Below, in pieces: positions 8,012 to 23,409 of a stretch of DNA of 37,358 nt. The notes below the pieces were generated by a model. It worked only from the letters and a program-made list of their open reading frames with translations. It was not told the origin of the DNA and did no database searches. Numbering within the stretch: position 1 is the stretch's first letter; every line of letters begins with the position of its first letter. The translations under genes were made by a program, and so were the position numbers. This stretch comes from an uncultured Eubacteriales bacterium (GTDB taxonomy: Bacteria; Bacillota; Clostridia; Christensenellales; Aristaeellaceae). The stretch lies in assembly GCA_902790495.1 (NCBI GenBank), contig CADASK010000013.1, positions 1 to 37,358 on the forward strand, given 5' to 3'.

Positions 8012-8950
8012 TCACTGCAGGTCCTGCAGCTTGCCCTTCAGGGCGTTGAGCACCGCGCCGATGATGATGACCACGATGCCGAACATCGTCGCCGCCGCCG
8101 AAGCGTAGCCGAAGCGCGGCAGGCCCATGTCCGAGGTGAAGGCCGTGCGGTAGACGAAGGTCGCGATGACGTCGGTGGCGTAGAAGGGGCCGCCGCCGGT
8201 CAGCGTCTGGATCAGGTCGAAGGCCTTGAGGGAGTTGATCGTGCACAGGATCAGGATGATGCCCGCGGTGGGCGCGATGATCGGCACCACCACGCTGAAG
8301 AAGGTGCGGCTGCGCGTCGCGCCGTCCACGCTGGCGGCCTCGATCACGTCCGTCGGCACGCTCTGCAGGGCGGCCAGCCAGTAGATCATGTAGGTGCCCA
8401 TGTCCTTCCACACCGAGACGTAGACCACGGTCTGCATGGCGTACTTGGCGTTGCCCAGCCAGTTGATGTTCTTGTCGATCAGGTTCATGCTCTTCATGGC
8501 ATAGTTGATGATGCCGTTGGAGGACCAGATGAAGACCATCACGATGCCCACGATGGAGGCCGTGACCACCACCGGCACGAAGAGGGACACGCGGTAGGCC
8601 GTGCGCAGCTTCAGCTTCTCATCGTTGAGCAGGTAGGCGAAGAAGAGGGAGATGACCACCTCCAGCGGCACCACCATGATCATGTAGCGGAAGCTGTTTT
8701 TGAAGGCGCCCCAGAACACCGAGTCGTTCAGGAGGCTGCGGTAGTTCTCCAGCCCGACATAGGCCATGTTGCTGGTCATGCCCGACCAGTTGAACAGGGA
8801 GTAGTAGATCGAGCAGAGGATGGGATAGCCCTGGAACAGCAGGTAGAAGATCAGCGTCAGGGACACAAAGGCCCAGCACCAGAGGTTCAGCTTGATCCGG
8901 TTCCTGCGCTGGATGGGACTCCGCACGGCTTTGATGGCATGCTGGCTCAT
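8012..8950 (-). CDS. CUT1 sugar ABC transporter permease (MalF-like)
   Basis: 312 aa. First membrane span at about 22-50, then the periplasm-facing segment FNWSGMTSNMAYVGLENYRSL typical of MalF-type permeases, and further spans from about 85. The EAA loop is at 200-224 (DVIEAASVDGATRSRTFFSVVVP). Its ATG overlaps the stop of the upstream DUF4838 gene (ATGA), so the two are translationally coupled. Works with the MalG-like permease and the binding protein; the substrate is not specified by sequence, but the intracellular beta-glycosidases around it suggest a beta-linked plant oligosaccharide. Confidence 0.93.
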   Translation of the reverse strand: MSQHAIKAVRSPIQRRNRIKLNLWCWAFVSLTLIFYLLFQGYPILCSIYYSLFNWSGMTSNMAYVGLENYRSLLNDSVFWGAFKNSFRYMIMVVPLEVVISLFFAYLLNDEKLKLRTAYRVSLFVPVVVTASIVGIVMVFIWSSNGIINYAMKSMNLIDKNINWLGNAKYAMQTVVYVSVWKDMGTYMIYWLAALQSVPTDVIEAASVDGATRSRTFFSVVVPIIAPTAGIILILCTINSLKAFDLIQTLTGGGPFYATDVIATFVYRTAFTSDMGLPRFGYASAAATMFGIVVIIIGAVLNALKGKLQDLQ

Positions 8951-10824
8951 ACGCGTTCATCTCTTTCTGTGGTCGGCTCGTCGTTCGTCGGGGTGCGCGG
9001 TGTTTCTTTCAGCCCCGTGTACCGCTGCGTCACCTCGATCGCCCGGTACACGTCGAAATCCATCGGATAGACCGCCTCGCGCTCGCGGATGATGCGGCAG
9101 TAGCGGTCGTAGGCGGCCGTGGCGGCGGCCTCGTCGCCCGCGGTGAGGGCGGCCAGGGCGTCCGCGTAGGCGGCGTTCTGCAGGAGCGTGCTCCCATACC
9201 GCCGCAGGATCGGGTCTCCCCTGTCCTCCAGCGTTTCACTCTCCGCCCTGGAGAGCCGGGCGATCTCCCGGTAGCGCCCGGTCAGGTCGGGCCGCAGGCG
9301 CGGGCCGTTGGCGTTGGCGTAGTCCGTGTCGCACAGGGCCGACACCGCCTCGAAGTACACCCGCACGCGCGGGGCGTCCGCGCCGTACAGGCCCTCGAAG
9401 TATGCCTCCGCGACGTCCTCGGGCCGGGTGTCCGCGTCCCAGAGCAGGCGGCCCATGGCGTAGATGGGCAGGGCGTTGGGCATCATGACCCGCAGCTCCT
9501 GGCAGGCGATCAGGCCCTGAAAGCCCAGGCCCCGCACCCGCCGGATGTCCCCGCAGAGAGTGCCGGCGATCTTCAGATAGCCGGGGTCGCCGTAGTGAGC
9601 CCGGCCCAGGTGGTAGTCATAGATGAAGGCGTCCCCCGCGAACACCTGCCGCCAGGCAGCGTAATACCGCAGGTTTTCCCCGATGTCCAGCGGAAGCCGC
9701 ATCGCGTTGCGCCGGTAGGGCGGCGGCTCGCCCGCGGGTACTTCCGCCGGGTAGCCGGTCTCGAAGGTGCGGGAGATCGGGGCGAACATCAGGATGAACC
9801 GCTCCGGATGGCGGATGCGCTCGCGCTCCGGGGGATACAGCAGCTCCTGGTAGAGCAGGAACACGATCCGCGTGGCCAGCCCGGCCTCCGTCAGCGCCTC
9901 GTCGATGCGGTTGAGGATCCGCACGTATTGGTCGCTCAGGGTGGTCTGCCGGCAGGCTTCGCACTCGCAGAGGTTGTTGAAGGTGTCGGCCAGCCAGAAG
10001 TGCACCGCGTCCACCTCGGGATGGGCCTTCGCGTAGGCCACGACGTCGTCCGTCAGGGCCTGCTGCACGTCCTCGCTGGCGTAGCACAGGTTCGTGTTGG
10101 CGGGCACGCCGCCGAAGAGGCGTCTCTCCCCCTTCAGCAGGGCGATGCGGCTGCGGTATCGCGCCTCGCGGGGCTCGGCCTGCGTCTGCCAGCCGTTGCC
10201 CGGATACCCCAGGGCCCGGGAGGTCCAGCCGTGGCCCGCCCGGTGGAGCAGGAGGCCGCGCTTTTTGATCTCCGCGACGAGCGTCCGGTCGAAGGCTTCC
10301 TTTTCCTCCTCCGACAGGGTGCGCGGGGGCATCAGCGGGTTGTTCTGGTGGCTGTACCACCGCTCCCAGAATATGTCCGGCCTGAAGAACTGGGCGAAGC
10401 AGATGTTCATGCCCGCCTTGGGCAACCAGTCGACGTAGGCCAGCATCTGCTCCAGGGATTCCGCGCCCTCGATGCACATGCCCCGGAAGCTGTGGGCAGC
10501 CCGGCTCTCCCGGCGGGGGACCTTCAACTGAGCGCGGTCCGTGAGGCGCGGGATGCGCGTGTAATCCTCCCCCGGCGCCCAGAAGGCGAATCCGATTTCC
10601 TTTAAATAGGCGTAAGCGCCGATCAGCGCGCTTCGCGGGTTGCTGCCGCGGATGGCGATGCGCTCCGCGTCCCCCTCGATGGCGTAGGCGTCCTCCCCGG
10701 AGGGCTCGCCCAGCTCCACGGTGATCCCGGGCAGGCTTTCTTCCGCGAGTCCCGCGAGGCGGAGATACCGCCTCACCTCCTCCGCGGCGAAGGCGAGGGT
10801 GGGATGGCGTTCGCGTTCCGTCAT
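8947..10824 (-). CDS. DUF4838 family protein, GH-like TIM-barrel, first gene of the transport operon
   Basis: 625 aa, no signal peptide, so cytoplasmic. The N-terminal 85 residues resemble the small alpha/beta domain found before GH20/GH67 catalytic barrels (AYAYLKEIGFAFWAPGEDY). A barrel-like central part follows with HFWLADTFNNLCECEACRQT, where the Cys cluster CxCxxC at about residue 285 is a hallmark I associate with DUF4838. The C-terminal 150 residues are mainly helical. No catalytic assignment is established for the family; a glycoside-hydrolase-like role on uronic-acid- or hexosamine-like sugars has been suggested from fold. It is the promoter-proximal gene and shares ATGA with the permease, implying its product is needed as soon as the substrate is imported. 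Confidence 0.75.
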   Translation of the reverse strand: MTERERHPTLAFAAEEVRRYLRLAGLAEESLPGITVELGEPSGEDAYAIEGDAERIAIRGSNPRSALIGAYAYLKEIGFAFWAPGEDYTRIPRLTDRAQLKVPRRESRAAHSFRGMCIEGAESLEQMLAYVDWLPKAGMNICFAQFFRPDIFWERWYSHQNNPLMPPRTLSEEEKEAFDRTLVAEIKKRGLLLHRAGHGWTSRALGYPGNGWQTQAEPREARYRSRIALLKGERRLFGGVPANTNLCYASEDVQQALTDDVVAYAKAHPEVDAVHFWLADTFNNLCECEACRQTTLSDQYVRILNRIDEALTEAGLATRIVFLLYQELLYPPERERIRHPERFILMFAPISRTFETGYPAEVPAGEPPPYRRNAMRLPLDIGENLRYYAAWRQVFAGDAFIYDYHLGRAHYGDPGYLKIAGTLCGDIRRVRGLGFQGLIACQELRVMMPNALPIYAMGRLLWDADTRPEDVAEAYFEGLYGADAPRVRVYFEAVSALCDTDYANANGPRLRPDLTGRYREIARLSRAESETLEDRGDPILRRYGSTLLQNAAYADALAALTAGDEAAATAAYDRYCRIIREREAVYPMDFDVYRAIEVTQRYTGLKETPRTPTNDEPTTERDERV

Positions 10825-11027: not shown

Positions 11028-13484
11028 ATGGAGCTGTACAAAGATCCGACCCAGCCCGTAGCGGCGCGCGTCGAGGACCTGCTCTCCCGCATGACGCTGG
11101 AGGAGAAGGCGGCGCAGCTGTGCGGCGATCTCCCCGCCGGTTTCATGCGCGACGGCGAGGTGTCGCTGGAGCTGCTGCGGGAGAAGTTCCCTGACGGCCA
11201 CGGCCGCTTCACCCAGTACTCGATGGCCGGCATTGTGGATCCCGTGCAGATCGCCGAGATCAGCAACACCCTGCAGCGCTACTTTGTGGAGGAGACCCGC
11301 CTGGGCATCCCGGTGGCCCTGCAGGCGGAGAATCTCTGCGGCTACCCCGGCGCGGAGGGCACCCTCTTCCCCGCCCAGGTCAACCTGGGCTGCACCTGGG
11401 AGCCGGAGCTGGCGGAGGAGATGGCCCGCATCATCGGCCAGGAGAGCCGCGCCGTGGGCATCAACAGCGCCATGAGCCCGGTGATCGACGTCTCCCGCGA
11501 CCCGCGCTGGGGCCGCACCTACGAGACCTACGGCGAGGATCCCTACCTCATCAGCCAGATGGGCATCCACTACATCCGCGGCATGCAGGGCGACAAGCAG
11601 AACGGCCCGGCCTGCATCGCCAAGCACTTTTTGGGCTATGCCGACAGCCAGGGCGGCCTGAACTGCGCGGTCAGCCGCATCAACGACCGGGAGCTGTACG
11701 AGGTCTTCGCCACGCCCTTCGAGGCGGCGGCCAGGGAGGCGGACGTCTCCGGCATGATGGCCAACTACGGCGAGATCGACGGCCAGTGCGTCGGCGCGAA
11801 CAAGAAGATCGCCCGCACCCTGCTGCGGGACACCATGGGCTTCCGCGGCATGCTGACCAGCGACGGCGCGGGCATCATGAAGATGTACAACTATTTCCAC
11901 ATCGCCCAGAGCTACCCGGAGGCCGGTCTGCTGGCCAAGAAGGGCGGCCTGGACACCGAGATCCCCGTGGGCGGCGCGTTCCGCCACCTGCCCGAGTACG
12001 TGCGCAGCGGCCAGCTGGACGAGCAGCTGATCGACGAGTCCGTCCGCCGCATCCTGACCATCAAGTTTGAGTACGGCCTGTTCGAGCATCCCTATGTGGA
12101 CGTGGAGCAGGTGCGCGGGGCCATGACCAACGCCCGCAAGGCCGAGGTCAGCCGCCATATCGCCGAAAAGTCCATCACCCTGCTGCAGAACGACGGCGTC
12201 CTCCCGCTGAAGCCCGGCCTGAGGCTGGCCGTCATCGGCCCCCACGCCGACAACCTGCGCTACCCCATCAGCGGCTACACCTACCCGGCCTACATTGAGA
12301 TGATGAAGGCCGGCGCGGAGGACGACGGCTCCGTCACCTTCAACGGCATCGCCGACGAGGCGGCCAAGGAGAAGCAGCCCGGCAAGACCAAGGCCGGCGG
12401 CAGCAACATGTTCGCCTCCATGCTCGCCCTGTTCTCCGAGGAGGACCGGGAGCGGCTGAACGACCTGCCCTCCCTGCTGCGCGGCATGGGCTCCCGCAGC
12501 CTGCGCGAGGTGCTGGCGGATCGCTTCAGCGTCACCTACGCCCAGGGCTGCGACATCATCCGCGAGGACACCTCCGGCATCGCCGAGGCGGTTCGCGCCG
12601 CCGAGGACAGCGACGCGGTGGTTCTGGCCATGGGCGGCAACTGCGGCTGGGTGCACGTGACCGGCGGCGAGGGCAAGGACCGCAGCCACCTGGATCTGCC
12701 CGGCGTACAGCAGCAGCTGCTGGAGGCCGTGTGCGCCGTCGGCAAGCCCGTGGTGTTGGTGCTCTACGGCCCCGGCGTGTTCGCGATTCCGTGGGCGAAG
12801 GAGCATGTCTCCGCCATCGTGCAGGCCTTCATGCCCGGCGCGGAGGCGGGCCGCGTCGTCGCCGACGTGCTGGACGGCACGGTCAATCCCGGCGGCCACC
12901 TGCCCTTCACCGTGCCGCACCACATCGGCCAGCTACCCATCGTCTACAACCACCGGGTCGGCTCCGGCTTCTCCTCCGGCAGCGACGAGAGCGCCAGCCT
13001 GATCTTCTCCGGCGGCTACGTGGACGGCACGGACAAGCCCCTCTTCCCCTTCGGCCACGGCCTGAGCTACACCGCCTTCGAGGTCAGCCCCATGGCGCTC
13101 TCCTCCCGGGAGCTGCCCACGGACGGGGCCGTCGACGTCGCCTGCACAGTGAAGAACACCGGCGAGCGGGACGGCGACCAGGTGCTGCAGCTCTACTATC
13201 ACTTCTCCGGGGCCCACGTCATCCGGCCCAACATGCAGCTTGTCGCCTTCCGCCGCGTGCACCTGAAGGCCGGCGAGAGCAAGAAGATCGTCTTCCGCCT
13301 GGAGGCGGCGGAGCTGGGCTATTACAACGAGGACATGGTCTTCGGCGTGGAGCCGGGCCCGGCGGAGCTGAAGCTGGGCGTCAGCAGCGCGGACATCGTC
13401 GACGCCCAGCCCATCACCCTGACCGGCCAGCCCGTGAATCTGATGGGCCGGCGCGTATACACCTGCAAGAGCGAGGAAATCTGA
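11028..13484 (+). CDS. GH3 family beta-glycosidase (beta-glucosidase/beta-xylosidase type)
   Basis: 818 aa from the ATG at 11028 (AAGGAGG upstream); a longer frame starting in the promoter is rejected. No signal peptide, so cytoplasmic. GH3 N-terminal barrel with SPVIDVSRDPRWGRTYETYGEDP (150-172), the KHF motif at 199-201 and the nucleophile loop GMLTSDGAG, giving Asp279. The alpha/beta-sandwich domain starts near 380 (KSITLLQNDGVLPLK) and a fibronectin-III-like domain closes the protein after about 690. Removes terminal beta-linked sugars from imported oligosaccharides. As first gene of the ten-gene rightward operon it supplies the monosaccharide for the EMP-like enzymes that follow. Confidence 0.93.
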   Translation: MELYKDPTQPVAARVEDLLSRMTLEEKAAQLCGDLPAGFMRDGEVSLELLREKFPDGHGRFTQYSMAGIVDPVQIAEISNTLQRYFVEETRLGIPVALQAENLCGYPGAEGTLFPAQVNLGCTWEPELAEEMARIIGQESRAVGINSAMSPVIDVSRDPRWGRTYETYGEDPYLISQMGIHYIRGMQGDKQNGPACIAKHFLGYADSQGGLNCAVSRINDRELYEVFATPFEAAAREADVSGMMANYGEIDGQCVGANKKIARTLLRDTMGFRGMLTSDGAGIMKMYNYFHIAQSYPEAGLLAKKGGLDTEIPVGGAFRHLPEYVRSGQLDEQLIDESVRRILTIKFEYGLFEHPYVDVEQVRGAMTNARKAEVSRHIAEKSITLLQNDGVLPLKPGLRLAVIGPHADNLRYPISGYTYPAYIEMMKAGAEDDGSVTFNGIADEAAKEKQPGKTKAGGSNMFASMLALFSEEDRERLNDLPSLLRGMGSRSLREVLADRFSVTYAQGCDIIREDTSGIAEAVRAAEDSDAVVLAMGGNCGWVHVTGGEGKDRSHLDLPGVQQQLLEAVCAVGKPVVLVLYGPGVFAIPWAKEHVSAIVQAFMPGAEAGRVVADVLDGTVNPGGHLPFTVPHHIGQLPIVYNHRVGSGFSSGSDESASLIFSGGYVDGTDKPLFPFGHGLSYTAFEVSPMALSSRELPTDGAVDVACTVKNTGERDGDQVLQLYYHFSGAHVIRPNMQLVAFRRVHLKAGESKKIVFRLEAAELGYYNEDMVFGVEPGPAELKLGVSSADIVDAQPITLTGQPVNLMGRRVYTCKSEEI

Positions 13485-13521
13485 GCCTTCACGAGCGTTT
13501 GATGATAAGGGAGGAATTGCC

Positions 13522-14676
13522 ATGTTAGTTCCCATGAGAGCCATCCTGGAGGCCGCCGACACCTACCGCTACGGCCAGGCCGCCTTCAACATGAACAGCT
13601 ACGGCCAGATTGAGGCCGCCGTGCGCGTGCACGAGCTGCTCCACTCCGGCGCGATCCTGCAAGGCGCGGAGGCCTCCAACGCCTACATGGGCGGCGCGGA
13701 GGACTTCATGCACGGCGACATCGAGCAGAAGCGCCGGGGCGCGAAGGCCATCGGTGACGCCGTGAAGGCCTGCGGCGAAGGCAGCCCCGTGCCCATCGCC
13801 CTGCACCTCGACCACGGCAAGAGCCTGGAGAGCGTGAAGGCCTGCATCGACGGCGGCTACACCTCCGTGATGATCGACGGCAGCAGCCTCCCCTACGAGG
13901 ACAACGTGGCCCTGACCCGCGAGGTCGTGCGCTACGCCCACCCCTACGGCGTCACCGTGGAGGGCGAGCTGGGCGTGCTGGCCGGCGTGGAGGATCACGT
14001 CTTCTCCGCCACCAGCACCTACACCAACCCCATGCAGGCCATCGACTTCTTCAAGAAGACCGGCTGCGACGCCCTGGCCATCAGCTACGGCACCTGCCAC
14101 GGGGCCAACAAGGGCAAGGACACAAAGATCCGCCGGGAGATCGCCATCGCCACCAAGGAGTGCATGATGCACGAGGGGATCGACGGCTTCCTGGTCAGCC
14201 ACGGCTCCTCCACCGTGCCCCAGGAGTATGTGCAGCAGATCAACGAGATGGGCGGCCAGCTGGAGAACGCCTTCGGCATCGACGTGAACCAGCTGGTGGA
14301 CGTCGCCCACTGCGGCATCAACAAGATCAACGTGGACACCGACATCCGTCTGGCCTGCACCCGCAACATCCTGAAGCTCTTCCTGGATCACCCCGAGCTG
14401 CAGCAGAGCGCCGCCATCGGCGATATCTTCGCCCGCATGCGCGCCAACCCCAAGAACTTCGACCCCCGGAACTACCTGCAGAGCATCATGGACACCGTGG
14501 TCCATGGCCCCATCCCGAATGCGGACGTGGAGAAGATCGTCGCCTGCATGAAGGACGGCGTCATGGAATCCATCGCGCCGCTGCTGGTGCAGTTCGGCAG
14601 CTACCGCAAGAGCCACCTGATCCGGCCCGTGACGCTGGAGCAGATGGCGGATCGCTACAGGAAGGAGGGCATCTGA
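13522..14676 (+). CDS. fba: Class II (zinc) fructose-bisphosphate aldolase family protein, long B-type
   Basis: 384 aa. Motifs in order: HLDHG (95-99; Asp97 and zinc His98), GYTSVMIDGSSLPYEDN (112-128), VEGELG (146-151), YGTCHGANKG (189-198; zinc His193), SHGSS (226-230; zinc His227), INVDTD (269-274), FDPRNYL (313-319). It cleaves or condenses a ketose 1-phosphate or bisphosphate to DHAP plus an aldehyde. The DHAP-side and zinc residues look normal, so an aldolase releasing DHAP is well supported. Whether the other half is glyceraldehyde 3-phosphate or an analogue is open, given the altered isomerases in this operon. AAGGGAGGAATTGCC precedes the ATG. Confidence 0.88.
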   Translation: MLVPMRAILEAADTYRYGQAAFNMNSYGQIEAAVRVHELLHSGAILQGAEASNAYMGGAEDFMHGDIEQKRRGAKAIGDAVKACGEGSPVPIALHLDHGKSLESVKACIDGGYTSVMIDGSSLPYEDNVALTREVVRYAHPYGVTVEGELGVLAGVEDHVFSATSTYTNPMQAIDFFKKTGCDALAISYGTCHGANKGKDTKIRREIAIATKECMMHEGIDGFLVSHGSSTVPQEYVQQINEMGGQLENAFGIDVNQLVDVAHCGINKINVDTDIRLACTRNILKLFLDHPELQQSAAIGDIFARMRANPKNFDPRNYLQSIMDTVVHGPIPNADVEKIVACMKDGVMESIAPLLVQFGSYRKSHLIRPVTLEQMADRYRKEGI

Positions 14677-14678
14677 GC

Positions 14679-15524
14679 ATGAAGCATCTGTGCCTGAATC
14701 TCAAGCGCTTCGACGTGCCCGCGGCCGAGGGCGGCGTCAACCGCCTGGCGGAGGGCGGCGCCTGGGCCAAGACCATCGTCCGCGCCGTGAAGGATGAGCT
14801 GGAGACCTACCGCGGTGCGGCCCGCTTCCCGATGTATTTCCCGGAGGCCCACGTCATCCCCGCCGCCGGCGCAGCCGAGGGCAGCAGTGTCATCGAGGTC
14901 GGATGCCAGAGCGTCTACCGCCAGGATGTGGCCCCCGGCGTCAACTTCGGCGCCTACACCACCAACCGCCCCGCCGCGGCCATGAAGGCCCTGGGCGTCA
15001 CCAGCACCATCATCGGCCACTGCGAGGAGCGGGCCGACAAGCTGGGCGTGCTGCAGGAGGCGGGCGTGACGGACACCGCCGCCGTCTCCCGGCTGCTGAA
15101 TAAGGAGATCGCCTGCGCCGTCAGCCAGGGCATGACCGTGACCTACTGCATCGGCGAGAAGGCCGAGGAACGCGACCGCTGGCAGGAGGTGCTCACGGAG
15201 CAGCTCTCCGTGGGGCTGAAGGGCATCGACACGAAGAACGTCATCATCGCCTACGAGCCCATCTGGGCCATCGGCCCGGGCAAGACCCCGCCCGGCGCGG
15301 ACGTGATCGCACCCATCGCCCGCTTCATCAAGGAGCAGACCGGCGGCATGCCGGTGGTGTACGGCGGCGGGCTGAAGCAGGACAACGCGGAGATGCTGGC
15401 GTCGATTGAGGAGATTGACGGCGGGCTGATTGCCCTCACGAGGTTCCAGGGGGAGATTGGGTTCTACCCCGATGAGTATCTGGAGATTATTCGCATTTAT
15501 ATGCAGCATTGCAAACAGAGCTAA
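14679..15524 (+). CDS. Divergent triosephosphate isomerase homologue
   Basis: 281 aa from the ATG at 14679, 2 nt after the aldolase stop, with GGAGGG inside the aldolase end. The TIM catalytic set is kept: Lys9 (LNLKRFD in place of GNWKMN), His114 (IIGHCEER) and Glu193 (AYEPIWAIG). The phosphate-gripping parts are not: flexible loop 6 reads GPGKTPP, loop 7 is GGGL instead of GGSV, and loop 8 is DGGLIALTRF where TIM has DGALVGGASL, so the Gly-Gly pair that binds phosphate is lost and an Arg added. It is about 30 residues longer than normal TIM. Probably an aldose-ketose isomerase for a different small substrate; classical TIM activity cannot be excluded. Confidence 0.85.
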   Translation: MKHLCLNLKRFDVPAAEGGVNRLAEGGAWAKTIVRAVKDELETYRGAARFPMYFPEAHVIPAAGAAEGSSVIEVGCQSVYRQDVAPGVNFGAYTTNRPAAAMKALGVTSTIIGHCEERADKLGVLQEAGVTDTAAVSRLLNKEIACAVSQGMTVTYCIGEKAEERDRWQEVLTEQLSVGLKGIDTKNVIIAYEPIWAIGPGKTPPGADVIAPIARFIKEQTGGMPVVYGGGLKQDNAEMLASIEEIDGGLIALTRFQGEIGFYPDEYLEIIRIYMQHCKQS

Positions 15525-15583
15525 CATGGCCGATACTTTGTTTGCGCACTTGCTCAGGAAAGACCACATCAGGAGGAGATACC

Positions 15584-17080
15584 ATGCAGCTCCAGTTTGA
15601 ATATGGCAACGGCTTCATGACCGCCAACCTGCCCGACACCACCGACGTGTTCATCCCCGGCGAAACCGTGCCCGACCCGCCTTGCCTGCCCCAGGACTGG
15701 GACAGCCTCTACCAGGCCACCCTCGAATCCATCCGCCATCCCATCGGCATGGAGCCCCTGGCCGAGCACGTGCGCGGCAAGAAGACCGTGGTGTTCGTCA
15801 TCCCCGACATCGTCAAGGGCGGCTGCCAGCCCACCAGCCACCGCAAGGTCGCCATCCGCGCCTGCCTGGACGAGCTGTACGCCGCCGGTATCAAGAAGGA
15901 GAACATCCTCCTGCTCTTCTCCAACGGCCTGCACCCCCGCACGCCCATGAACGAGGCGAAGCAGATTCTCGGCGAGGAGCTGTTCAACGAGTTCTGGTAT
16001 TCCGGCCAGATCACCAGCCACGACAGCGAGGACTATGACCACCTGGTGGATCTGGGCTTCACCGCCCAGGGCGACCACGTGATCATGAACAAGTACGTCT
16101 ACGACGCGGACGTGGCCATCCTCATCGGCCACACCCAGGGCAACCCCTACGGCGGCTACTCCGGCGGCTACAAGCACTGCGCCACCGGCATCAGCCACTG
16201 GCGCAGCATCTCTGCCCACCACGTGCCCCAGGTCATGCACCGCCCGGACTTCGTGCCGGTGTCCACCTCCAGCCTCATGCGCGACAAGTTCGACCAGCAG
16301 GGCATGCACATGGAGGAGAAGATGGGCAAGAAGTTCTTCTGCTGCGACGCCGTGCTGGACACCAAGTCCCGCCAGATCGAGATCAACTCCGGCTACGCCA
16401 AGGAGATGCAGCCCGTCTCCTGGAGGACGGCCGACAAGCGCACCTACGTCCACTGGGCCGAGAAGAAGTACGACGTGGTGGTCTTCGGCATGCCCACCAA
16501 CTTCCACTACGGGGCCGGCATGGGCACCAACCCGATCCAGATGATGCAGGCCCTCTCCGCCCAGGTGATCCGCCACAAGCGCGTGCTCTCCGACCGGTGC
16601 GTGTTCATCGTGCCCTCCATCTGTGACGGCTGGTTCCACGACGAGCGCTGGCCCTACCTGCGCGAGCTCTACGAGATGTTCCAGCACGACTCCATGCAGA
16701 TCCTGCCGGACATGAACCGCTACGGCGAGTACTTCGCCACCAACGAGGAGTACATCCGCAAGTACCGCTTCGCCAACGCCTTCCACCCCTTCCACGGCTT
16801 CAGCATGATGAGCTGCGGCCACCTGGCGGAGATGCACACCAGCGCCATCTACATCGTCGGCGCGCGGGAGCCGGGCATCGCCCGCGGCATGGGCCTGAAA
16901 ACCCGCGCCACCGTGGAGGAGGCCCTGGAGGACGCCAAGCGCAAGTTTGTGGGCGAGAATCCCAACATCCTGGCCCTGCCCAAAACCTTCACCACCGCCG
17001 CGGTGCACCTGTGCATGAAGGATCCGGCGGAGAACAGCCACTTCCGGGATGACGCGCCCGCCCATCCCTGCGGCTGCTGA
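15584..17080 (+). CDS. LarA-family (nickel-pincer nucleotide) racemase/epimerase homologue
   Basis: 498 aa from the ATG at 15584 (AGGAGG 9 nt upstream). LarA landmarks: IPDIVKGGCQPT (73-84; usual DxTRPxP), SNGLHPRTP (113-121; His117 in the catalytic His108 position), SHDSED (145-150), and YSGGYKH (192-198), where Lys197 matches the Lys that binds the pincer cofactor; His213 fits the nickel ligand. The second catalytic His of lactate racemase (ten residues before the Lys) is Asn187 here. About 70 residues longer than lactate racemase. LarA homologues racemise or epimerise alpha-hydroxy acids, so a hydroxy-acid from this operon's pathway is the likely substrate. The cofactor genes larB/C/E are not in the window. 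Confidence 0.85.
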   Translation: MQLQFEYGNGFMTANLPDTTDVFIPGETVPDPPCLPQDWDSLYQATLESIRHPIGMEPLAEHVRGKKTVVFVIPDIVKGGCQPTSHRKVAIRACLDELYAAGIKKENILLLFSNGLHPRTPMNEAKQILGEELFNEFWYSGQITSHDSEDYDHLVDLGFTAQGDHVIMNKYVYDADVAILIGHTQGNPYGGYSGGYKHCATGISHWRSISAHHVPQVMHRPDFVPVSTSSLMRDKFDQQGMHMEEKMGKKFFCCDAVLDTKSRQIEINSGYAKEMQPVSWRTADKRTYVHWAEKKYDVVVFGMPTNFHYGAGMGTNPIQMMQALSAQVIRHKRVLSDRCVFIVPSICDGWFHDERWPYLRELYEMFQHDSMQILPDMNRYGEYFATNEEYIRKYRFANAFHPFHGFSMMSCGHLAEMHTSAIYIVGAREPGIARGMGLKTRATVEEALEDAKRKFVGENPNILALPKTFTTAAVHLCMKDPAENSHFRDDAPAHPCGC

Positions 17081-17100
17081 AGGACGAAAAGGAGTGTTTC

Positions 17101-17667
17101 ATGGAGCAATCCAAGGGAAAGCGGCTGCTGAAGCTGTTTCTCAGCATGCTGTACATCAGCGCCTTCACCTTTGGCGGCGGTTTCGTGATTGTCACCTTCA
17201 TGAAGCGCAAGTTTGTGGACGAGCTGCACTGGCTCGACGAGCGTGAGATGCTGGACATGACGGCCCTGGCCCAGTCCAGCCCCGGGGCCATCGCGGTCAA
17301 CGCGGCCATCCTGGTGGGCTGGAAGGTCGGGGGCTTTGCGGGCATGGTGTGCGCCGTGCTGGGCACCATCATCCCGCCCATGGTCATCCTCTCGGTCATC
17401 TCCCTCTTCTACCAGCTCTTTGCCACGAACCGCTATGTGGCCCTGGTGCTGCGCGGCATGTCCTGCGGCGTGGCCGCCGTGATCCTGGACGTGTCCGTGA
17501 GCCTGGGCAAGAACGTGCTGAAGACGAAGCAGTGGGTCCACTGGGCCGTGATGGCGGCGGCCTTCGTCGCCACCTTCTTCTTCCGGGTCAACGTGGTCTA
17601 CATCATCCTCTGCGCCGCCGCCGTGGGCGTCGTGCTGGCGCTCCAGGGCCGGAAGGGAGGCGCGTGA
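17101..17667 (+). CDS. chrA: Chromate (CHR) family transporter, half-size subunit 1
   Basis: 188 aa, one ChrA domain instead of the two fused in long ChrA. FGGGFVIVTFMKRKFVDELHWLDEREMLDMTALAQSSPGAIAVNAAILVG is the family signature, followed by about five membrane segments. Short-chain CHR proteins work as a pair of opposite topology, and the partner is the next gene, 1 nt downstream. The family moves oxyanions, chromate being only the tested substrate. Lying inside a carbohydrate operon, between LarA- and PFK-like genes, a role in export or uptake of an anionic intermediate is more likely than chromate resistance (inference). Confidence 0.9.
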   Translation: MEQSKGKRLLKLFLSMLYISAFTFGGGFVIVTFMKRKFVDELHWLDEREMLDMTALAQSSPGAIAVNAAILVGWKVGGFAGMVCAVLGTIIPPMVILSVISLFYQLFATNRYVALVLRGMSCGVAAVILDVSVSLGKNVLKTKQWVHWAVMAAAFVATFFFRVNVVYIILCAAAVGVVLALQGRKGGA

Positions 17668-17668
17668 G

Positions 17669-18232
17669 ATGCTGCTGCAGCTCTTCCTCAGCTTTCTGCA
17701 GATCGGCCTGTTCTCCATCGGCGGCGGCTACGCGGCCATCCCGCTGATCCAGAGCCAGACCGTCGACGTGCACGGATGGCTCACCGCCTCGCAGTTCATG
17801 GATCTGGCCACCATCGCTGAGATGACGCCCGGCCCCATCGCGGTCAACGGCGCCACCTTCGTGGGCCTCAAGATCGCGGGACTGCCGGGCGCGGTGACCG
17901 CCACCTTCGGGTGCATCCTGCCTTCCCTGATCATCGTGTCCCTGCTGGCCTATATCTACCGCAGGTACAGCGCCCTGCCCATGCTGCAGAGCGTGCTGGC
18001 CTCCCTGCGACCCGCCGTGGTGGCCCTCATCGCCGCCGCCGGCCTCAACATGCTGCTGCAGGTGGCCTTCGGCGAACGGCAGCTGATTGCCCTGGAGAAC
18101 GCCCAGTGGGCGGGCATCGCCCTCTTCGCCGCCGCCTTCCTGGCCCTGCGCAAGTGGAAGGCCAACCCGATCCTCACCATGGTGCTCTGCGGCGCGGGCG
18201 GGCTGGCGCTGGGTCTGCTGGGCCTTTTCTGA
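17669..18232 (+). CDS. chrA: Chromate (CHR) family transporter, half-size subunit 2
   Basis: 187 aa with the second ChrA domain: SIGGGYAAIPLIQSQTVDVHGWLTASQFMDLATIAEMTPGPIAVNGATFVG, then hydrophobic segments to the C-terminus. The ATG at 17669 follows the partner's stop by one base, with GGAAGGGAGG upstream in the partner's last codons, so equal translation of both subunits is expected. Presumed obligate partner of the preceding protein. Confidence 0.9.
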   Translation: MLLQLFLSFLQIGLFSIGGGYAAIPLIQSQTVDVHGWLTASQFMDLATIAEMTPGPIAVNGATFVGLKIAGLPGAVTATFGCILPSLIIVSLLAYIYRRYSALPMLQSVLASLRPAVVALIAAAGLNMLLQVAFGERQLIALENAQWAGIALFAAAFLALRKWKANPILTMVLCGAGGLALGLLGLF

Positions 18233-18248
18233 ACAGGAGGTTTTCCCT

Positions 18249-19427
18249 ATGGACAAGAATCTGGTTATCATCCATGGCGGCGGCCCCACCGCGGTCATCA
18301 ACGCCTCCCTGTGCGGCGCGATCCGTGAGGCCCAGGCCAGCCCGGACGTGGACAGGATCTATGTGGCCATCGGCGGCACCGGCGGCCTGCTGAAGGAGCG
18401 CCTGCGGGACGTCACCGACCTGCCGGAGGAGACGCTGCAGGCCCTGCTGCACAGCCCGGCCTCCGCCATCGGCACCTCCCGGGACGCCCTTGAGGCGCCG
18501 GAATACGAGGCCATGGTGCCCATCCTGCGCAAGCATGGCATCCGCTATGTGCTCATGAACGGCGGCAACGGCACCATGGACACCTGCGGCAAGCTGCAGC
18601 AGCGCTGCGCCGGCACGGACATCCGCGTGATCGGCATCCCGAAGACCATGGACAACGACCTGGCCATCACCGACCACGCGCCCGGCTTCGGCAGCGCGGC
18701 GCGCTTCATGGCCGGCAGCGTGGCCGAGGTCTGCTGCGATGTGGAAAGCCTGCCCATCCATGTGACGGTGATCGAGGCCCTGGGGCGCAACGCCGGCTGG
18801 GTCACCGCCGCCTCCGCCCTGGCCTGCGACAGCTACGGCGAAGGCCCCGACCTTATCTATCTGCCGGAGCGCGACTTCAGCGAGGAGGCCTTCCTGCGGG
18901 ATGTGAAGCGCCTCATCGACACGAAGGGCCACGGCGTGGTGGTGGCCTCCGAGGGCCTGCACGGCCCTGGCGGCAAGCCCATCGTGCCCCCGATCTTCAC
19001 CGTGGGCCGGGCCACCTACTTCGGCGACGTGTCCGCCCACCTGGCCGGCCTGATCATCCGGGAGCTGCACTACAAGGCCCGCTCCGAGAAGCCCGGCCTG
19101 CTGGGCCGCGCCTCCATCGCCTGGCAGAGCGCCGTGGACCGGGACGAGGCTGAGGCCTGCGGGCACGCGGCGGTGCGGGCTGCCGTCAGCGGCGAGACCG
19201 CGAAGATGGTCGCCATCCGCCGGGTCTCGGAAAGCCCCTATGCCAGCGAAACCTTCCTGACCGATATCCGCGACGTGATGATGACCGAACGCAAGCTGCC
19301 CGACGCCTTCATCAACGCCGAGGGCAACGGCGTGACCGAGGCCTTCAAGGCCTGGTGCCGCCCCCTGCTGGGCGGCCCGCTGCCGAAGCTGACCGATCTG
19401 AGAAAAGGAGAGTGGACGCAATGCTGA
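18249..19427 (+). CDS. Phosphofructokinase-family sugar kinase (PPi-PFK-like group) with altered motifs
   Basis: 392 aa from the ATG at 18249 (AGGAGG 8 nt upstream). N-terminal GGGPTAVINASL and PKTMDNDL (131-138; the Lys after Pro is characteristic of the PPi-using group), then TDHAPGFGSAARF and VIEALGRNAGW. The phosphoryl-donor loop reads GGNGT (105-109): the residue that is Asp in PPi-type enzymes is Gly, as in ATP-type, so donor choice is uncertain. The segment where related enzymes carry ...LQRCAAH..., which helps bind the sugar 6-phosphate, reads LLGRASIAWQSA (284-295). Expected to phosphorylate a ketohexose or its phosphate at C1; the substrate may not be fructose 6-phosphate. Confidence 0.85.
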   Translation: MDKNLVIIHGGGPTAVINASLCGAIREAQASPDVDRIYVAIGGTGGLLKERLRDVTDLPEETLQALLHSPASAIGTSRDALEAPEYEAMVPILRKHGIRYVLMNGGNGTMDTCGKLQQRCAGTDIRVIGIPKTMDNDLAITDHAPGFGSAARFMAGSVAEVCCDVESLPIHVTVIEALGRNAGWVTAASALACDSYGEGPDLIYLPERDFSEEAFLRDVKRLIDTKGHGVVVASEGLHGPGGKPIVPPIFTVGRATYFGDVSAHLAGLIIRELHYKARSEKPGLLGRASIAWQSAVDRDEAEACGHAAVRAAVSGETAKMVAIRRVSESPYASETFLTDIRDVMMTERKLPDAFINAEGNGVTEAFKAWCRPLLGGPLPKLTDLRKGEWTQC

Positions 19428-20677
19428 ACATGACCCTGCGCGACACCGCGAACCGCGTGGATGAAAACGCCCTCCGGCAGGCCATGCGGGAGGCGGAGCC
19501 CATCCTGGCGCGGGCCCAGGCCGGCGAGGCGAAGTACGCCGACAGCCAGGGCTGGCTGAGCCTGGAGCAGTGGGCCTCCGACGCCTGGCTGGATCAGATC
19601 GAGGCCATCGCCGACCGGGTGAAGAAGACCTGCGACGCCTTTGTGGTCATCGGCGTGGGCGGCAGCAACAACGCGGCCCGCAGCGTGATCGAGGCCCTGG
19701 CCGAGGGCGGCGTGGAGATCGTCTACGCCGGCAACACTCTCTCGCCCCACGCCCTGAATAAGATGCTGCGCTCCCTGGAGGGCAAGGACTACGCCATCGA
19801 CTGCATCGCCAAGAACTTTGAGACCCTGGAGCCCGGCTCCTCCTTCCGCATCCTGCGGGAGGCCATGGCGAAAAAGTACAGCCCGGAGGAGGCCGCCCGG
19901 CGCACCATCTGCACCGGCACCTACGGCTCCTCCCTGGAGAAGCTGTGCGAGGCCGAGGGCTACACCTTCGTCCCCTTTCCCACCGATGTGGGCGGACGCT
20001 ACAGCGCCTTCAGCTATGTGGGCCTGCTGCCCATGGCGGTGGCGGGCATCGACGTGCGCGCCCTGGTGCGCGGCGGCCGGGACATGGAGCGCCGGCTGCA
20101 CGAGGAGGGCGCGAAGACCAACCTCGCCCTGCGCTACGCCGCCCTGCGGAACCTCTACCACCGTCAGGGCTATGCCCTGGAGATGCTGGCCTCCTTCGAG
20201 CCCCAGTTCCGCTGGTTCTACAAGTGGTGGGTGCAGCTCTTCGCCGAGAGCGAGGGCAAGGACGGCAAGGGCATCTTCCCCGTGGCAGCGGAATACTCCG
20301 AGGAGCTGCACGCCGTGGGCCAGTACCTGCAGGACGGCGCGCCGCTGATGTTCGAGACCTTCCTGGACGTGAAGGAGCCGACGGATCACCTGGTTATCCG
20401 CAGCGACGGCAAGAAGGATTTCTTCGACTACCTGAACGGCAAGGATTTCTGGGACATCAACCGCGCGGCCTTCGACGCCACCGTCACCGCCCACAGCGCC
20501 AAGATGCCCTGCGTGATCTTCGAGGTCGGCGCCCTGGACGCCTACCACTTCGGTCAGCTGTTCTACTTCTTCCAGTTCGCCTGCTACCTCTCCGGGGAGA
20601 TTTTGGGGATCAATCCCTTCGATCAGCCCGGCGTGGAGGCCTACAAGGGCTGGATGTTCAAGGCCCTTGGAAAATAA
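19421..20677 (+). CDS. Phosphoglucose isomerase homologue with rewritten phosphate-binding loop
   Basis: 418 aa; its ATG overlaps the kinase stop by 7 nt, with AAAAGGAG upstream. Catalytic elements are intact: GGRYS (191-195), Glu276 in FAESEGKDGKGIFP, His297 (EELHAVGQY) and Lys409 in FDQPGVEAYK. But the loop binding the sugar phosphate, SKSGTTTEP in ordinary PGI, reads AKNFETLEP (130-138), and the GGSYLG turn is GGSNNAA (80-86). Ring-opening and isomerisation chemistry should work, but not with the usual grip on a 6-phosphate. Somewhat shorter than typical PGI (about 450). Likely an aldose-ketose isomerase for a hexose carrying something else at C6, or for a free sugar. Confidence 0.87.
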   Translation: MLNMTLRDTANRVDENALRQAMREAEPILARAQAGEAKYADSQGWLSLEQWASDAWLDQIEAIADRVKKTCDAFVVIGVGGSNNAARSVIEALAEGGVEIVYAGNTLSPHALNKMLRSLEGKDYAIDCIAKNFETLEPGSSFRILREAMAKKYSPEEAARRTICTGTYGSSLEKLCEAEGYTFVPFPTDVGGRYSAFSYVGLLPMAVAGIDVRALVRGGRDMERRLHEEGAKTNLALRYAALRNLYHRQGYALEMLASFEPQFRWFYKWWVQLFAESEGKDGKGIFPVAAEYSEELHAVGQYLQDGAPLMFETFLDVKEPTDHLVIRSDGKKDFFDYLNGKDFWDINRAAFDATVTAHSAKMPCVIFEVGALDAYHFGQLFYFFQFACYLSGEILGINPFDQPGVEAYKGWMFKALGK

Positions 20678-21002
20678 ACCGCAACGCAAAAACCGCTGGA
20701 GGATCTACCTGGGCACCAACGACAAGGATACCCACCAGCCCTACGGCACCCCCGAGGCCTGCATGGCGAAGGTCGACGAGGTGCTTACGAAGCACTTTGA
20801 GGGCTTCACCCTACAGGAGGCCGTCGGTGGCTGGACGAACGAGGACGGCACGGTGGATCACGAGTACACCATCGTGATCCAGCTGAGCGACACCAACTCC
20901 GAGAAGGTGCACACCGCGGCCAACGAGCTGATTCAGGTGTTCAACCAGAACACCGTGCTGATTCAGGAGAACGAGACCCGCACGGAGTTCCTCAGCAGGT
21001 AA
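20667..21002 (+). CDS. Small DUF3574-like protein, last gene of the operon
   Basis: 111 aa, soluble, no signal peptide. The frame opens with TTG at 20667 inside the last codons of the isomerase gene (11-nt overlap); no ATG is available, so translational coupling is assumed. The pattern RWRIYLGTND...FEGFTLQEAVGGWTNEDGTVDHEYTIVIQL...FNQNTVLIQ resembles DUF3574 (F-x-GFT-x-x-x-A-x-G-x-W...E...V), a small ferredoxin-like-fold family of unknown role. Family match is from memory of the pattern. It ends 11 nt before the operon terminator. Confidence 0.65.
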   Translation: MENKPQRKNRWRIYLGTNDKDTHQPYGTPEACMAKVDEVLTKHFEGFTLQEAVGGWTNEDGTVDHEYTIVIQLSDTNSEKVHTAANELIQVFNQNTVLIQENETRTEFLSR

Positions 21003-21260: not shown

Positions 21261-23249
21261 TTACCAGAGCGCCTTCATCGCCGCGTCGCCGTCCACGAAG
21301 GGGCCGGGCAGGGCGCTGAGGCCGCGGTGGTTGCCGAAGTAGTCGCGGTCGAGGGTGATGTCCGAGCCGTCCGGATTCTCGAAGCGCTCCTCCGGCTCGA
21401 AGGCGCAGCCCAGGATGTCGCTGGTGATGATCCCGTCGCGGAAATCGCCCAGCAGGTCATAGACATTCGTCTGGAGGCGGCACGCGCCGTTCTCCTCCAC
21501 CAGGGCCACCTCGGGCTTGGCGTCGCTGATCAGGTGCCGCTTCTCGTGCTTGCACACGTCCGCGCCGCCGAAGTAGGCGTTGCCCTCCACCCACACCGGC
21601 AGGTGGCCGAAGTGGTAGGTGCCCAGCTCGTGCATGTTCGGCTCCTCGCCCAGCTTGAAGTTGGCGATCCACTCCTCGTAGGTCGGGAAGATGTCGAAGC
21701 AGGCCGTGCCCACCACCTCGTAGTCCGCGTTCTGGGGCGTGCGGGCCGGGTCGGTGATGGGATAGTGCTGCACGAAGATGTTGTTGTAGATCCGGTCGTC
21801 GCCGTGCAGGATGGTCATGAAGCCCGCCACCTCGGTGCGGTGCCGGATGTGGTAGGGCGTGTAGCGCGGCTCGCGCTGGCCGTTGACGATGCTGTCCACG
21901 CCGCTGTTGATCAGGCCGAAGTTGCCCAGCATCAGGTTGTGCACCACAGCGATGCCCTCGCTGGGGATCACCACGCCGGTCTTGGAGAGCATCACGTTGT
22001 TGTCGATCAGGGTCGGGCCGTGGCCCACCTCGATGAACACGTCGTTGGAGAACATCGCGCCCTGCGCCTTCTCCACGCCGTCCGGCCGGTGGTTGTCGTG
22101 CAGCAGGTTCTGGGTGATGCGCGCGCCCTGGGCCTCCCAGTCCAGCCACACGCCCATGATGCAGTTGTGGATGTGGTTGCGGCGGATGGTCACGTCGATG
22201 GCGGCGTGCAGCTTGATGCCGGCCGTCTCCGCGCCGCCCAGCTGCTGGGTGTTGCAGATGTGGTGGATGTGGCAGTCCTCGATCGTGGAAAACACCGCGC
22301 CCATGCGGCCCACGATGCCGGTCTGCTCGCAGTGGTGCACGTTGCAGCGGCGGATGATGTGGCCGCCCACCTTCTCCTTGAGCCAGCCGTGATACTGGCC
22401 GCGGCACACCGCGTCGCGCTCCATCTGGGTCGGGCTCTTGACATGCTTGGTGTAGAAATACATGTCGTTTTCGGGGTCGCGGTACTTGCCCAGGGAGATG
22501 CCGCAGCAGCGGCTGTTGCTGATCTCGCAGTCCTCGATGATCCAGCCGCGGGACCAGTGCGGGCCGATCATGCCGTCCTGGTAGGCGGCGGGCGGCGCCC
22601 AGGTGGTGGCGGCCTTCTGGATGTCGAAGCCGCTGACCGTGATGTAGCCCACGCCCGTCTTGTCCGGCATGAAGCAGTTGCGCCGCACGTTGATCTCAAC
22701 CTTCTCCTGGTTGGGATCGTTGCCCTGGAAGTTCGCGTAGAGCACGGTGGTGTTGCCGTCCTGCTCGGTGTACCACTGGTAGCGGGATTCCTCCGGCTGC
22801 CAGGAGGTGGGGCTCACCTCGCCCTTCAGGCACTCCTCCAGGGTCACGGTCTCGTACATCATCCGGTCGTTGAGGTAGACCATGCCGGTGTGGCGCAGGG
22901 TGGGCGCAAAGTACCAGTCGCCGCAGACCATGGTGGTGTAGGGGTTGTAGCTGCCGAACACGCCGTTGTCCACGCGGTTCGTCCACACATTGCCCTCGTA
23001 GTGCGTCCAGCCCGTCAGCTCCTCCGCACCGGTGATCACCGCGCCCAGGGGCTTCTCACTGCGGTAGACGATGCGCTTGTCCTCGGTGCCCGCGTGGATC
23101 GGGTTGACGTACTCCCGGTACACGCCCGGGGCCACGACGATCTCATCCCCCGCGACAGCAATCTTCGCCGCGTCGTTGATATAGCGGAAGGGCGTCTCCT
23201 TGCTGCCGTTGCCGTCCCGCGCGGCAGCTGCGTCGACATAATAGATCAT
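21261..23249 (-). CDS. GH120 family beta-xylosidase (right-handed beta-helix)
   Basis: 662 aa from the ATG at 23249 (CAGGAGG upstream). No signal peptide, so acts on imported xylo-oligosaccharides. The start YYVDAAAARDGNGSKETPF, the parallel beta-helix repeats, and segments such as NVWTNRVDNGVFG, TWAPPAAYQDGMIGP and GIKLHAAIDV match the GH120 enzyme of Thermoanaerobacterium as I remember it. Catalytic residues fit: Asp370 (WLDWEAQG) and Glu407 (FIEVGHG). Between them is an extra stretch (RPDGVEKAQGAMFSN) that makes the spacing 37 instead of the 23 I recall, so the active-site loop is longer. Single-gene unit with its own extended -10 promoter. Confidence 0.9.
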   Translation of the reverse strand: MIYYVDAAAARDGNGSKETPFRYINDAAKIAVAGDEIVVAPGVYREYVNPIHAGTEDKRIVYRSEKPLGAVITGAEELTGWTHYEGNVWTNRVDNGVFGSYNPYTTMVCGDWYFAPTLRHTGMVYLNDRMMYETVTLEECLKGEVSPTSWQPEESRYQWYTEQDGNTTVLYANFQGNDPNQEKVEINVRRNCFMPDKTGVGYITVSGFDIQKAATTWAPPAAYQDGMIGPHWSRGWIIEDCEISNSRCCGISLGKYRDPENDMYFYTKHVKSPTQMERDAVCRGQYHGWLKEKVGGHIIRRCNVHHCEQTGIVGRMGAVFSTIEDCHIHHICNTQQLGGAETAGIKLHAAIDVTIRRNHIHNCIMGVWLDWEAQGARITQNLLHDNHRPDGVEKAQGAMFSNDVFIEVGHGPTLIDNNVMLSKTGVVIPSEGIAVVHNLMLGNFGLINSGVDSIVNGQREPRYTPYHIRHRTEVAGFMTILHGDDRIYNNIFVQHYPITDPARTPQNADYEVVGTACFDIFPTYEEWIANFKLGEEPNMHELGTYHFGHLPVWVEGNAYFGGADVCKHEKRHLISDAKPEVALVEENGACRLQTNVYDLLGDFRDGIITSDILGCAFEPEERFENPDGSDITLDRDYFGNHRGLSALPGPFVDGDAAMKALW

Positions 23250-23303
23250 GGGAAAAACCTCCTGTTCTGCGTCCATGCCGAGGGCATGACAGTTCCTGCC
23301 TGC

Positions 23304-23309
23304 AGTATA
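23304..23309 (-). promoter_or_regulatory. Extended -10 of the GH120 promoter
   Basis: Minus strand reads TGC-TATACT about 55 nt upstream of the start codon; no good -35 at 17 nt. A small CATGCC-GAG-GGCATG hairpin (23274-23288) lies in the leader. Confidence 0.6.
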
Positions 23310-23380
23310 GCACACCGCGACCGGAAAGAAAAGGCGCGCCGCCAATTCGCCGCGGCAAAACGCCGTTTTTGATCGGCGCC

Positions 23381-23409
23381 TTGACGAAATCCGCAAACCC
23401 CGGTAAGAT
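23381..23409 (+). promoter_or_regulatory. Sigma-A promoter of the broken DUF3990 gene
   Basis: TTGACG (23381-23386), 17-nt spacer, TAAGAT (23404-23409). The -35 TTGACGAAA matches that at 28591. Confidence 0.65.

Follow-up and report, generated by a model that had tools for sequence, protein, structure and literature searches.

A glycolysis-like operon with a single-histidine LarA protein in a member of the Clostridia with gut-dwelling relatives: a candidate pathway for C6-sulfo hexoses

Results

We identified an operon of nine co-directional, tightly packed genes on the plus strand (positions 11028-21002) of a 37,358-nucleotide stretch, hereafter the window, from an uncultured Eubacteriales bacterium (contig CADASK010000013.1 of assembly GCA_902790495.1). 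Its predicted proteins were identified by Pfam and NCBIfam profile matches. The first gene encodes a GH3 beta-glycosidase with an Fn3-like domain (11028..13484; PF00933, PF01915 and PF14310), followed by a class II ketose-bisphosphate aldolase-like protein (FBA; 13534..14676, alternative ATG at 13522; PF01116), a triosephosphate isomerase (TIM)-like protein lacking the canonical phosphate loops 7 and 8 (14679..15524; PF00121) and a LarA-like protein with a Lar_N domain (15584..17080; related to PDB 9q3j and 9q2u). Two ChrA-type half transporters (17101..17667 and 17669..18232; PF02417, Chromate_transp) precede a phosphofructokinase (PFK)-like kinase whose nearest relatives are the pyrophosphate-dependent PFKs of the PRK14072 group (18249..19427; NF010675, 400.7 bits, cut-off 273). 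The last two genes encode a phosphoglucose isomerase (PGI)-like protein (19421..20677; NF010697, 397.9 bits, below the cut-off of 443; PDB 1b0z) and a small DUF3574-like protein (20667..21002; PF12098, 32.1 bits). An earlier note, made from the sequence alone, had counted ten genes; its description of the packing agrees with the coordinates, which give gaps of 1-59 nt and overlaps of 7 nt (PFK/PGI) and 11 nt (PGI/DUF3574). Among the nine genes, no reductase or dehydrogenase for a C3 (sulfo) aldehyde was found by Pfam or NCBIfam. The operon probably encodes a dedicated Embden-Meyerhof-type pathway for hexoses carrying a sulfo group at C6, of which we infer the substrate and the last step.

The glycolytic genes of the operon are paralogous to canonical ones elsewhere in the genome (2.47 Mb in 78 contigs, about 94.5% complete). 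The search for a second set, which the earlier note had proposed as a check, located another pgi and tpi on contig C18, pfk on contigs C31 and C54 and class II fba on contigs C33 and C23. The PGI-like protein of the operon is 30% identical to the other PGI.

GTDB genomes were scanned with an alignment of seven LarA relatives and the best 80 of at least 563 confirmed relatives were kept. Together with the window and locus L043 these gave 82 LarA loci, in which genes were called and clustered. Most are labelled Clostridia, Oscillospiraceae or Lachnospiraceae, some Chloroflexi, Spirochaetales, Atopobiaceae or Thermophilibacter, and many come from gut, faecal or rumen-type samples according to the record titles. 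Loci with the larger part of the gene set include those of the isolates Flavonifractor sp. An10 (L116), Flavonifractor sp. An306 (L103) and Parablautia sp. Marseille-Q6255 (L091). As controls, 39 stretches of 20 kb were used, 19 from genomes of the order of the window and 20 from LarA-bearing genomes, that of the window among them. The hidden Markov model (HMM) counts given below are descriptive only, as the loci are related and the HMMs were derived from them.

Motifs were counted in PGI-like proteins of at least 350 amino acids (25 of the 27 in the cluster), TIM-like proteins of at least 250 amino acids (68 of 73) and FBA-like proteins of at least 350 amino acids, the window's own protein being included. 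Positions are given the roles that they have in canonical TIM and PGI. All 25 PGI-like proteins have AKNF[EKQ]TLEP where the canonical loop reads SKSGTTTEP, and the canonical SK[ST]xxT occurs in none of them, so the change to AKNFETLEP that the earlier note had read from the window is real. The catalytic motifs GGR, ESEGK, LHxxGQ and VExYK are each kept in 25/25, and a Glu is present in the changed loop of 16 of the 18 aligned members. The changes in TIM loops 7 and 8, likewise noted before, extend to the whole family: YGGS has become YGGGL and GGAS has become GLIALT[RQ]F in 68/68 proteins (canonical YGGS/GGAS, 0/68). The catalytic motifs around H95 (68/68), E165 (67/68; the exception is L134) and K12 (N.KRF in 62/68; unmatched in L062, L095, L097, L101, L116 and L120) are retained. 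K9, H114 and E193 are invariant across 39 aligned sequences, 38 of which carry an Arg in loop 8. Modelled by AlphaFold (predicted confidence, pLDDT, 91.6), the TIM-like protein has triosephosphate isomerases as its top Foldseek matches. Fold and catalytic residues are also shared with the paralogous L-erythrulose-1-phosphate isomerase (LerI; 11ef_A, Foldseek rank 43); the replacement of both loops in 68/68 proteins refers to the comparison with canonical TIM only.

The PFK-like protein of the window carries NGGNGTM and PKTMDND, and its best PDB relative, 3k2q, has GGGD at the first of these sites; the earlier note had described differences at donor and sugar-phosphate positions. In the family, PKTxDND is present in 37/37 proteins and the NGG motif in 31/37, 30 of these as NGGNDSM or NGGNG[ST]M. 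Such motifs by themselves do not name the phosphoryl donor. The FBA-like proteins keep HxDHG (37/37), and in the NagB-like proteins, which are encoded outside the window, the phosphate loop is lost in 34/34. Judged from the alignments, the loop losses are fixed family signatures in three enzyme families (TIM-, PGI- and NagB-like).

The LarA-like protein matches PDB 9q3j over residues 3-498 (E = 2.5e-248) and 9q2u over residues 1-481 (E = 2e-236). N187, K197 and H117 are invariant in the seven-sequence alignment, the Asn lying ten residues before the lysine of the nickel-pincer (NPN) cofactor, K197, and H117 being the first histidine, which is thus retained. The motif GNPYGGYSGGYK is found in 78 of the 82 loci and GLH in all 82. 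By sequence, the window protein is a member of the single-histidine LarA subfamily represented by these two structures, with the same His-to-Asn change. As described in the available text of PMC12611868, the subfamily comprises LarA_Bw (Blautia wexlerae, 9q3j) and LarA_Sp (Streptococcus plurextorum, 9q2u/9q3k), and the change to Asn removes the second catalytic histidine of the racemases. LarA_Sp is reported there to be without detectable lactate racemisation (data not shown in that paper). Neighbouring genes encode PGI, PFK and TIM in S. plurextorum, and FBPase, TIM, aldolase and glucosamine-6-phosphate isomerase in B. wexlerae; the authors leave the function open, proposing carbohydrate processing only (PMC12611868, same text). 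A plain lactate racemase was rejected as a function for the window protein on account of the missing second histidine and this behaviour of LarA_Sp. LarC, which is required for the nickel cofactor, is encoded on contig C55 of the window genome.

TIM is present in 73 of the 82 LarA loci (1 of 39 controls), and TIM and LarA therefore form the core of the system, around which other modules vary. Class genomes were searched for LarA (E <= 1e-60) and TIM (E <= 1e-35), 391 genomes each and apparently the same draw. LarA was found in 12, TIM in 12 and both in 11, with LarA only in G594 and TIM only in G620. Five loci without TIM (L071, L123, L129, L131 and L136) hold LarA together with an SsuA-type binding protein, which is why LarA may also act directly on an imported compound. 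Several variant arrangements were seen. L083 (8771-11497) has the order FBA-PFK-LarA with no TIM in between and is the sole PFK locus of 38 without TIM. In L123 (7063-16855) and L121 (7060-11900), LarA has no TIM and comes after two genes whose products belong, by scans of those in L123, to the type I phosphodiesterase family and to the reductases of the beta-hydroxyacid dehydrogenase family. The L123 LarA gene is followed by genes for an SsuA-type binding protein, ABC proteins and TauE. Such loci may possibly use a C3 compound directly after its import. LarA lies near split transketolase genes in L129 (889-9541), L131 (901-9364) and L098 (9006-14218), the last of which also has TIM and, just upstream, a nucleoside hydrolase gene. 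These transketolase loci suggest that the same C3 unit may also be made in another way, via a ketopentose or sulfo-transketolase-like chemistry.

The cleavage module is exchangeable. FBA was detected in 45/82 loci (1/39 controls) and PFK in 38/82 (0/39), one or both being present in 48, and ten other loci (0/39 controls) hold a transaldolase of a 228-amino-acid type. The transaldolase gene adjoins TIM-LarA, just upstream in nine loci and just downstream in L089, and PFK or FBA is found in 0/10 of these stretches, several of which are on short contigs (hypergeometric P of zero overlap, 6e-5). The top PDB match of the L087 transaldolase is the sulfofructose transaldolase (SF-TAL) BmSF-TAL, 8bc3 (5.3e-89), then 8bc4 and 8bc2; the next match is 1vpx (1.5e-41). 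It shares 140 of 221 residues (63%) with BmSF-TAL and keeps W138, A170 and R172. According to the available text of PMC11659671, WAR is the postulated sulfonate-orienting motif of BmSF-TAL. The mapping of its A and R to A170 and R172 is our own, and the W and A/R motifs are present in 10/10 transaldolase loci. The window operon, with its PFK and aldolase, encodes no SF-TAL, the search for it having been confined to the operon in this genome.

Entry is exchangeable as well. The HMMs detected NagB-like proteins in 34/82 loci (0/39 controls), NagA-like proteins in 31/82 (2/39) and PGI-like proteins in 27/82 (1/39). Both PGI-like and NagB-like proteins occur in 13 loci, only the former in 14 and only the latter in 21. 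A FucI-like entry gene is present in five loci (SftI-like, 5/82 versus 0/39); in L059, where it was scanned, its product has a weak match to the NCBIfam sulfoquinovose isomerase family SftI (228.7 bits). In the window genome the best matches to the SftI profile, the only family searched for this function, score 50.7 and 33.9 bits, far below the cut-off of 700, and the PGI-like enzyme may stand in for a sulfoquinovose isomerase. ABC, SsuA-like, NagB-like and NagA-like genes lie at the start of contig C14 of the same genome. All entry enzymes seen at the SF-TAL loci are NagA/NagB-like (NagB 8/10, NagA 7/10, PGI and SftI-like 0/10), which points to N-acetylglucosamine (GlcNAc)-6-X, X being the C6 group, as the likely substrate there.

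SsuA-type binding proteins were detected in 31/82 loci and TauE in 32/82, each against 0/39 controls. In L062, L064 and L065, whose remaining operon proteins are 80-93% identical to those of the window, TauE occupies the slot of ChrA between LarA and PFK. ChrA as a general link to the export of sulfur anions is weakened by its own distribution (4/82 loci, 2/39 controls), and only the slot shared with TauE remains of it.

GH3 was detected in 9/82 loci by HMM (8/82 by clustering) and in 0/39 controls. Divergent from the GH3 gene of the window lies a gene for a DUF4838/NAGLU_N glycosidase-like protein (cluster c11; 8947..10824, minus strand), a family found in 16/82 loci and 0/39 controls. A PDB sequence search with this protein gave 0 hits. 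Its model (pLDDT 86.5) is nearest to GH84, GH89 and GH20 hexosaminidases and GH67/GH115 glucuronidases, and it is likely an accessory hexosaminidase-type hydrolase, a fold that does not fix the substrate. Downstream of it is a sugar ABC importer on the minus strand, with a substrate-binding protein (5650-7065; PF01547) and permeases (7127-7993 and 8012-8950; PF00528). No PF00884 sulfatase was matched in the window genome at its completeness of about 94.5%. Genes for a ROK regulator (ROK: 16/82 loci, 0/39 controls), a xylose-isomerase-like TIM barrel and a Gfo/Idh/MocA oxidoreductase (3156-4319) lie at 564-4319; clusters c23 and c24, of types found there, also adjoin LarA in L097, L109, L110 and L120. 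To the right of the operon, both on the minus strand, are genes for a xylosidase-like protein with a GH120 insertion domain and beta-helix (21261-23513) and for a GH1 glycosidase (23703-25061). The DUF3574-like protein (20667-21002) does not recur as a neighbour in the gene maps of the relatives' loci and weakly matches the S-adenosylmethionine lyase family (25.1 bits, below the cut-off of 28).

Discussion

In the proposed pathway, the glycosidases (GH3 and c11) would free the sulfo-sugar, which would then enter the cell through a sulfonate-type ABC importer. The PGI-like enzyme would convert a hexose-6-X to the ketose-6-X; alternatively, GlcNAc-6-X would be deacetylated and deaminated by the NagA/NagB-like enzymes, encoded on contig C14 here. 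The PFK-like enzyme would then place a phosphate on C1, and the aldolase would release dihydroxyacetone phosphate (DHAP), which enters normal glycolysis, and a C3-X aldehyde (glyceraldehyde-3-sulfate or sulfolactaldehyde); the cleavage would instead fall to the sulfofructose-type transaldolase in other bacteria. TIM-like and LarA-like enzymes would dispose of the C3-X unit, the former having kept its proton-transfer residues and lost the phosphate grip. The earlier note had outlined a C6-modified aldohexose, its isomerisation, phosphorylation at C1, cleavage to DHAP and a C3 unit, and a role for LarA and an exporter, all of which fits the comparative evidence; the oxidation it included finds no dehydrogenase among the nine genes. 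Its outline did not contain the TIM-LarA core, the NagA/NagB-like amino-sugar entry, the hexosaminidase-like glycosidase beside the operon or the published LarA subfamily.

The note had offered sulfonate, carboxylate or no group at all for C6. A sulfo group is indicated by SF-TAL, the SsuA-type importers and TauE in the ChrA slot, and this may be O-SO3-, as in the GlcNAc-6-sulfate of mucin and glycosaminoglycans, or C-SO3-, as in sulfoquinovose, with arguments for either. An ester is favoured in the NagA/NagB loci by the abundance of GlcNAc-6-sulfate, and by the fact that we know of no amino-sugar sulfonates from the gut. The kinship with SF-TAL and the presence of TauE favour a sulfonate, and sulfoquinovose is a possible substrate in the PGI loci.

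For the last step, we tentatively favour formation of an enediol from C3-X followed by beta-elimination of sulfate or sulfite to give methylglyoxal, which a hydride shuttle on the nickel-pincer cofactor would turn into lactate; the sulfur anion or product would exit through ChrA or TauE. Two points lead us to prefer this speculative ending, namely that the operon lacks a dehydrogenase and that no net redox change would be involved, yet taken by itself it is a doubtful proposal. Much the same caution applies to the complete scheme, which we put forward as a conjecture slightly better founded than its ending: a sulfo-sugar glycolysis of many gut Clostridia that would retain the C6 sulfate or sulfonate until TIM-like enediol chemistry expels it as sulfate or sulfite and LarA converts the C3 product to lactate by dismutation. 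In one locus, L109, a glyoxalase-superfamily protein (15354-16319) is encoded by the fifth gene after LarA in a PGI-FBA-PFK-TIM-LarA arrangement; it would suit a methylglyoxal intermediate.

The strongest alternative, which has perhaps the same modest chance as the lactate ending, is a sulfo-sugar pathway without desulfurisation. TIM and LarA would isomerise or epimerise the C3-sulfo unit and TauE or ChrA would export an organic C3 sulfonate or sulfate, like the export of 2,3-dihydroxypropane-1-sulfonate (DHPS) or sulfolactate in classical sulfoglycolysis. Organosulfonate export by TauE-type proteins has precedent in known pathways, and in L123, a locus of the LarA-only kind, LarA is accompanied by an SsuA-type protein, TauE and a reductase of the beta-hydroxyacid dehydrogenase family. 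The relatives of LarA are hydroxyacid racemases and epimerases (NCBIfam; available text of PMC12611868), but this subfamily is described in the same text as lacking the racemases' second catalytic histidine. Moreover, since the operon has no C3-aldehyde reductase or dehydrogenase, the Gfo/Idh/MocA oxidoreductase being encoded at some distance (3156-4319), there is no obvious hydroxyacid on which a racemase could act.

Less probable is the use of unphosphorylated ordinary sugars. Glucose or GlcNAc would be isomerised or deaminated and phosphorylated at C1, fructose-1-phosphate would be cleaved to DHAP and glyceraldehyde, and the glyceraldehyde would be isomerised. The lost phosphate loops of the PGI-, TIM- and NagB-like enzymes, the Glu in the changed PGI loop (16/18) and the occurrence of the NagA/NagB-like module beyond the sulfur-linked system are all compatible with this, but it leaves the SF-type transaldolase, the SsuA-type importers, TauE and the Arg of TIM loop 8 (38/39) unexplained. 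Another group at C6 (6-deoxy, carboxylate or a further substituent), with the sulfur transporters present by coincidence, is less probable still: the loop changes as such say just 'not phosphate', but the importer (31/82) and exporter (32/82), each absent from the 39 controls, and the substitution by an SF-TAL with W/A/R kept argue against it. Ordinary glycolysis, or a regulated duplicate of it, was rejected as highly improbable despite the glycolytic fold families, given the separate pgi, tpi, pfk and fba set, the fixed loop signatures and the 30% identity of the two PGIs.

Several observations weigh against the assignment of the operon to C6-sulfo hexoses. The relatives were picked by LarA similarity, are redundant and often lie on short contigs, and the HMMs were trained on the loci they were tested on. 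Nine of the 82 LarA loci have no TIM, and ChrA is not enriched overall. The SsuA_fam scores of 129.5 (L043) and 92.1 (L129) are below the curated cut-off of 163.5, as is the SftI score of L059 with respect to its curated cut-off of 700. Of ten LarA-bearing genomes searched for LarC, only six gave a match, against one of ten other genomes in which this LarA is not known to occur; G563, listed as 100% complete, is among the four LarA-bearing genomes without a match. GH3 acts on beta-linkages, and its presence in the operon speaks for a substrate bound in this way; the sulfoquinovose of plant sulfolipid, by contrast, has an alpha-linkage. The altered-loop NagB-like protein is present in 23 of the 391 class genomes, just 4 of them with this LarA. 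Of twelve loci with such a gene (L201-L212), from genomes without a LarA match (one of which, G620, has TIM), nine have a NagA-like gene nearby, and SsuA/TauE hits number 0 in all twelve. As the NagB-like change is wider than the LarA system and occurs without SsuA/TauE, loop loss alone does not mean sulfur, and the altered NagB loop as a marker of sulfur is weakened. L204, which also has GH3, two FucI-like genes and a transaldolase of the ordinary type (LAASFK, not the SF-TAL motifs), illustrates that a similar-looking gene set can occur without sulfur transporters.

The assignment to C6-sulfo hexoses can be compared with known systems. The sulfo-TAL and sulfo-EMP (Embden-Meyerhof-Parnas) pathways, for example of Priestia megaterium and Faecalicatena, as given in the available text of PMC11659671 and PMC12890257, also split a 6-sulfo ketose to a C3-sulfo aldehyde, and homologues of SF-transaldolase occur in ten relatives' loci. 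Unlike these, the system described here would have a PGI/PFK/class II aldolase route and an amino-sugar entry, and no sulfolactaldehyde (SLA) reductase or dehydrogenase in the operon. Release of mucin GlcNAc-6-sulfate by 6-sulfo-beta-GlcNAcases (PMC11659886) and BbhII (PMC10245121) is described in the available text of both papers, which deals with the glycosidases and gives no intracellular GlcNAc-6-sulfate route; the free sugar would feed the NagA/NagB-like entry. Among the matches listed in literature searches, none covered both DUF2088/lactate racemase and sulfonates or sulfoglycolysis, and none announced a GlcNAc-6-sulfate catabolic pathway by title. In the PMC literature searched, we found no paper joining nickel-pincer enzymes to sulfoquinovose, pairing sulfoquinovose with lactate racemase or naming the sugar-sulfate intermediates sought. 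PMC12890257, a review from 2026, does not contain the word 'nickel' in its main text, and a term search of the LarA superfamily papers PMC7583248 and PMC11770544 yielded no passage on this LarA group. The component families, the LarA subfamily and its neighbours were already known, and what would be new is the sulfoglycolysis-like variant, which is unproven. With respect to the available text of PMC12611868, our sequence analysis adds the TIM-LarA core, the finding that its entry and cleavage modules can be exchanged, and the putative sulfo-sugar link.

If the proposed pathway is correct, the published single-histidine LarA structures, which have no function assigned, would gain a concrete substrate class and partner enzymes. 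To our knowledge this would be the first function for the subfamily and the first role of the nickel cofactor other than in a racemase or epimerase. In the gut, sulfated sugars from mucin and sulfoquinovose from plants are important as carbon sources that also contain sulfur, and this sulfur, once released, can feed the formation of hydrogen sulfide. For sulfoquinovose this is set out in the available text of PMC12890257. The pathway would allow sulfatase-free use of mucin GlcNAc-6-sulfate. Because the operon genes pass as ordinary glycolysis by sequence family, a route that imports such sugars before any removal of the sulfur would alter the interpretation of gut genomes.

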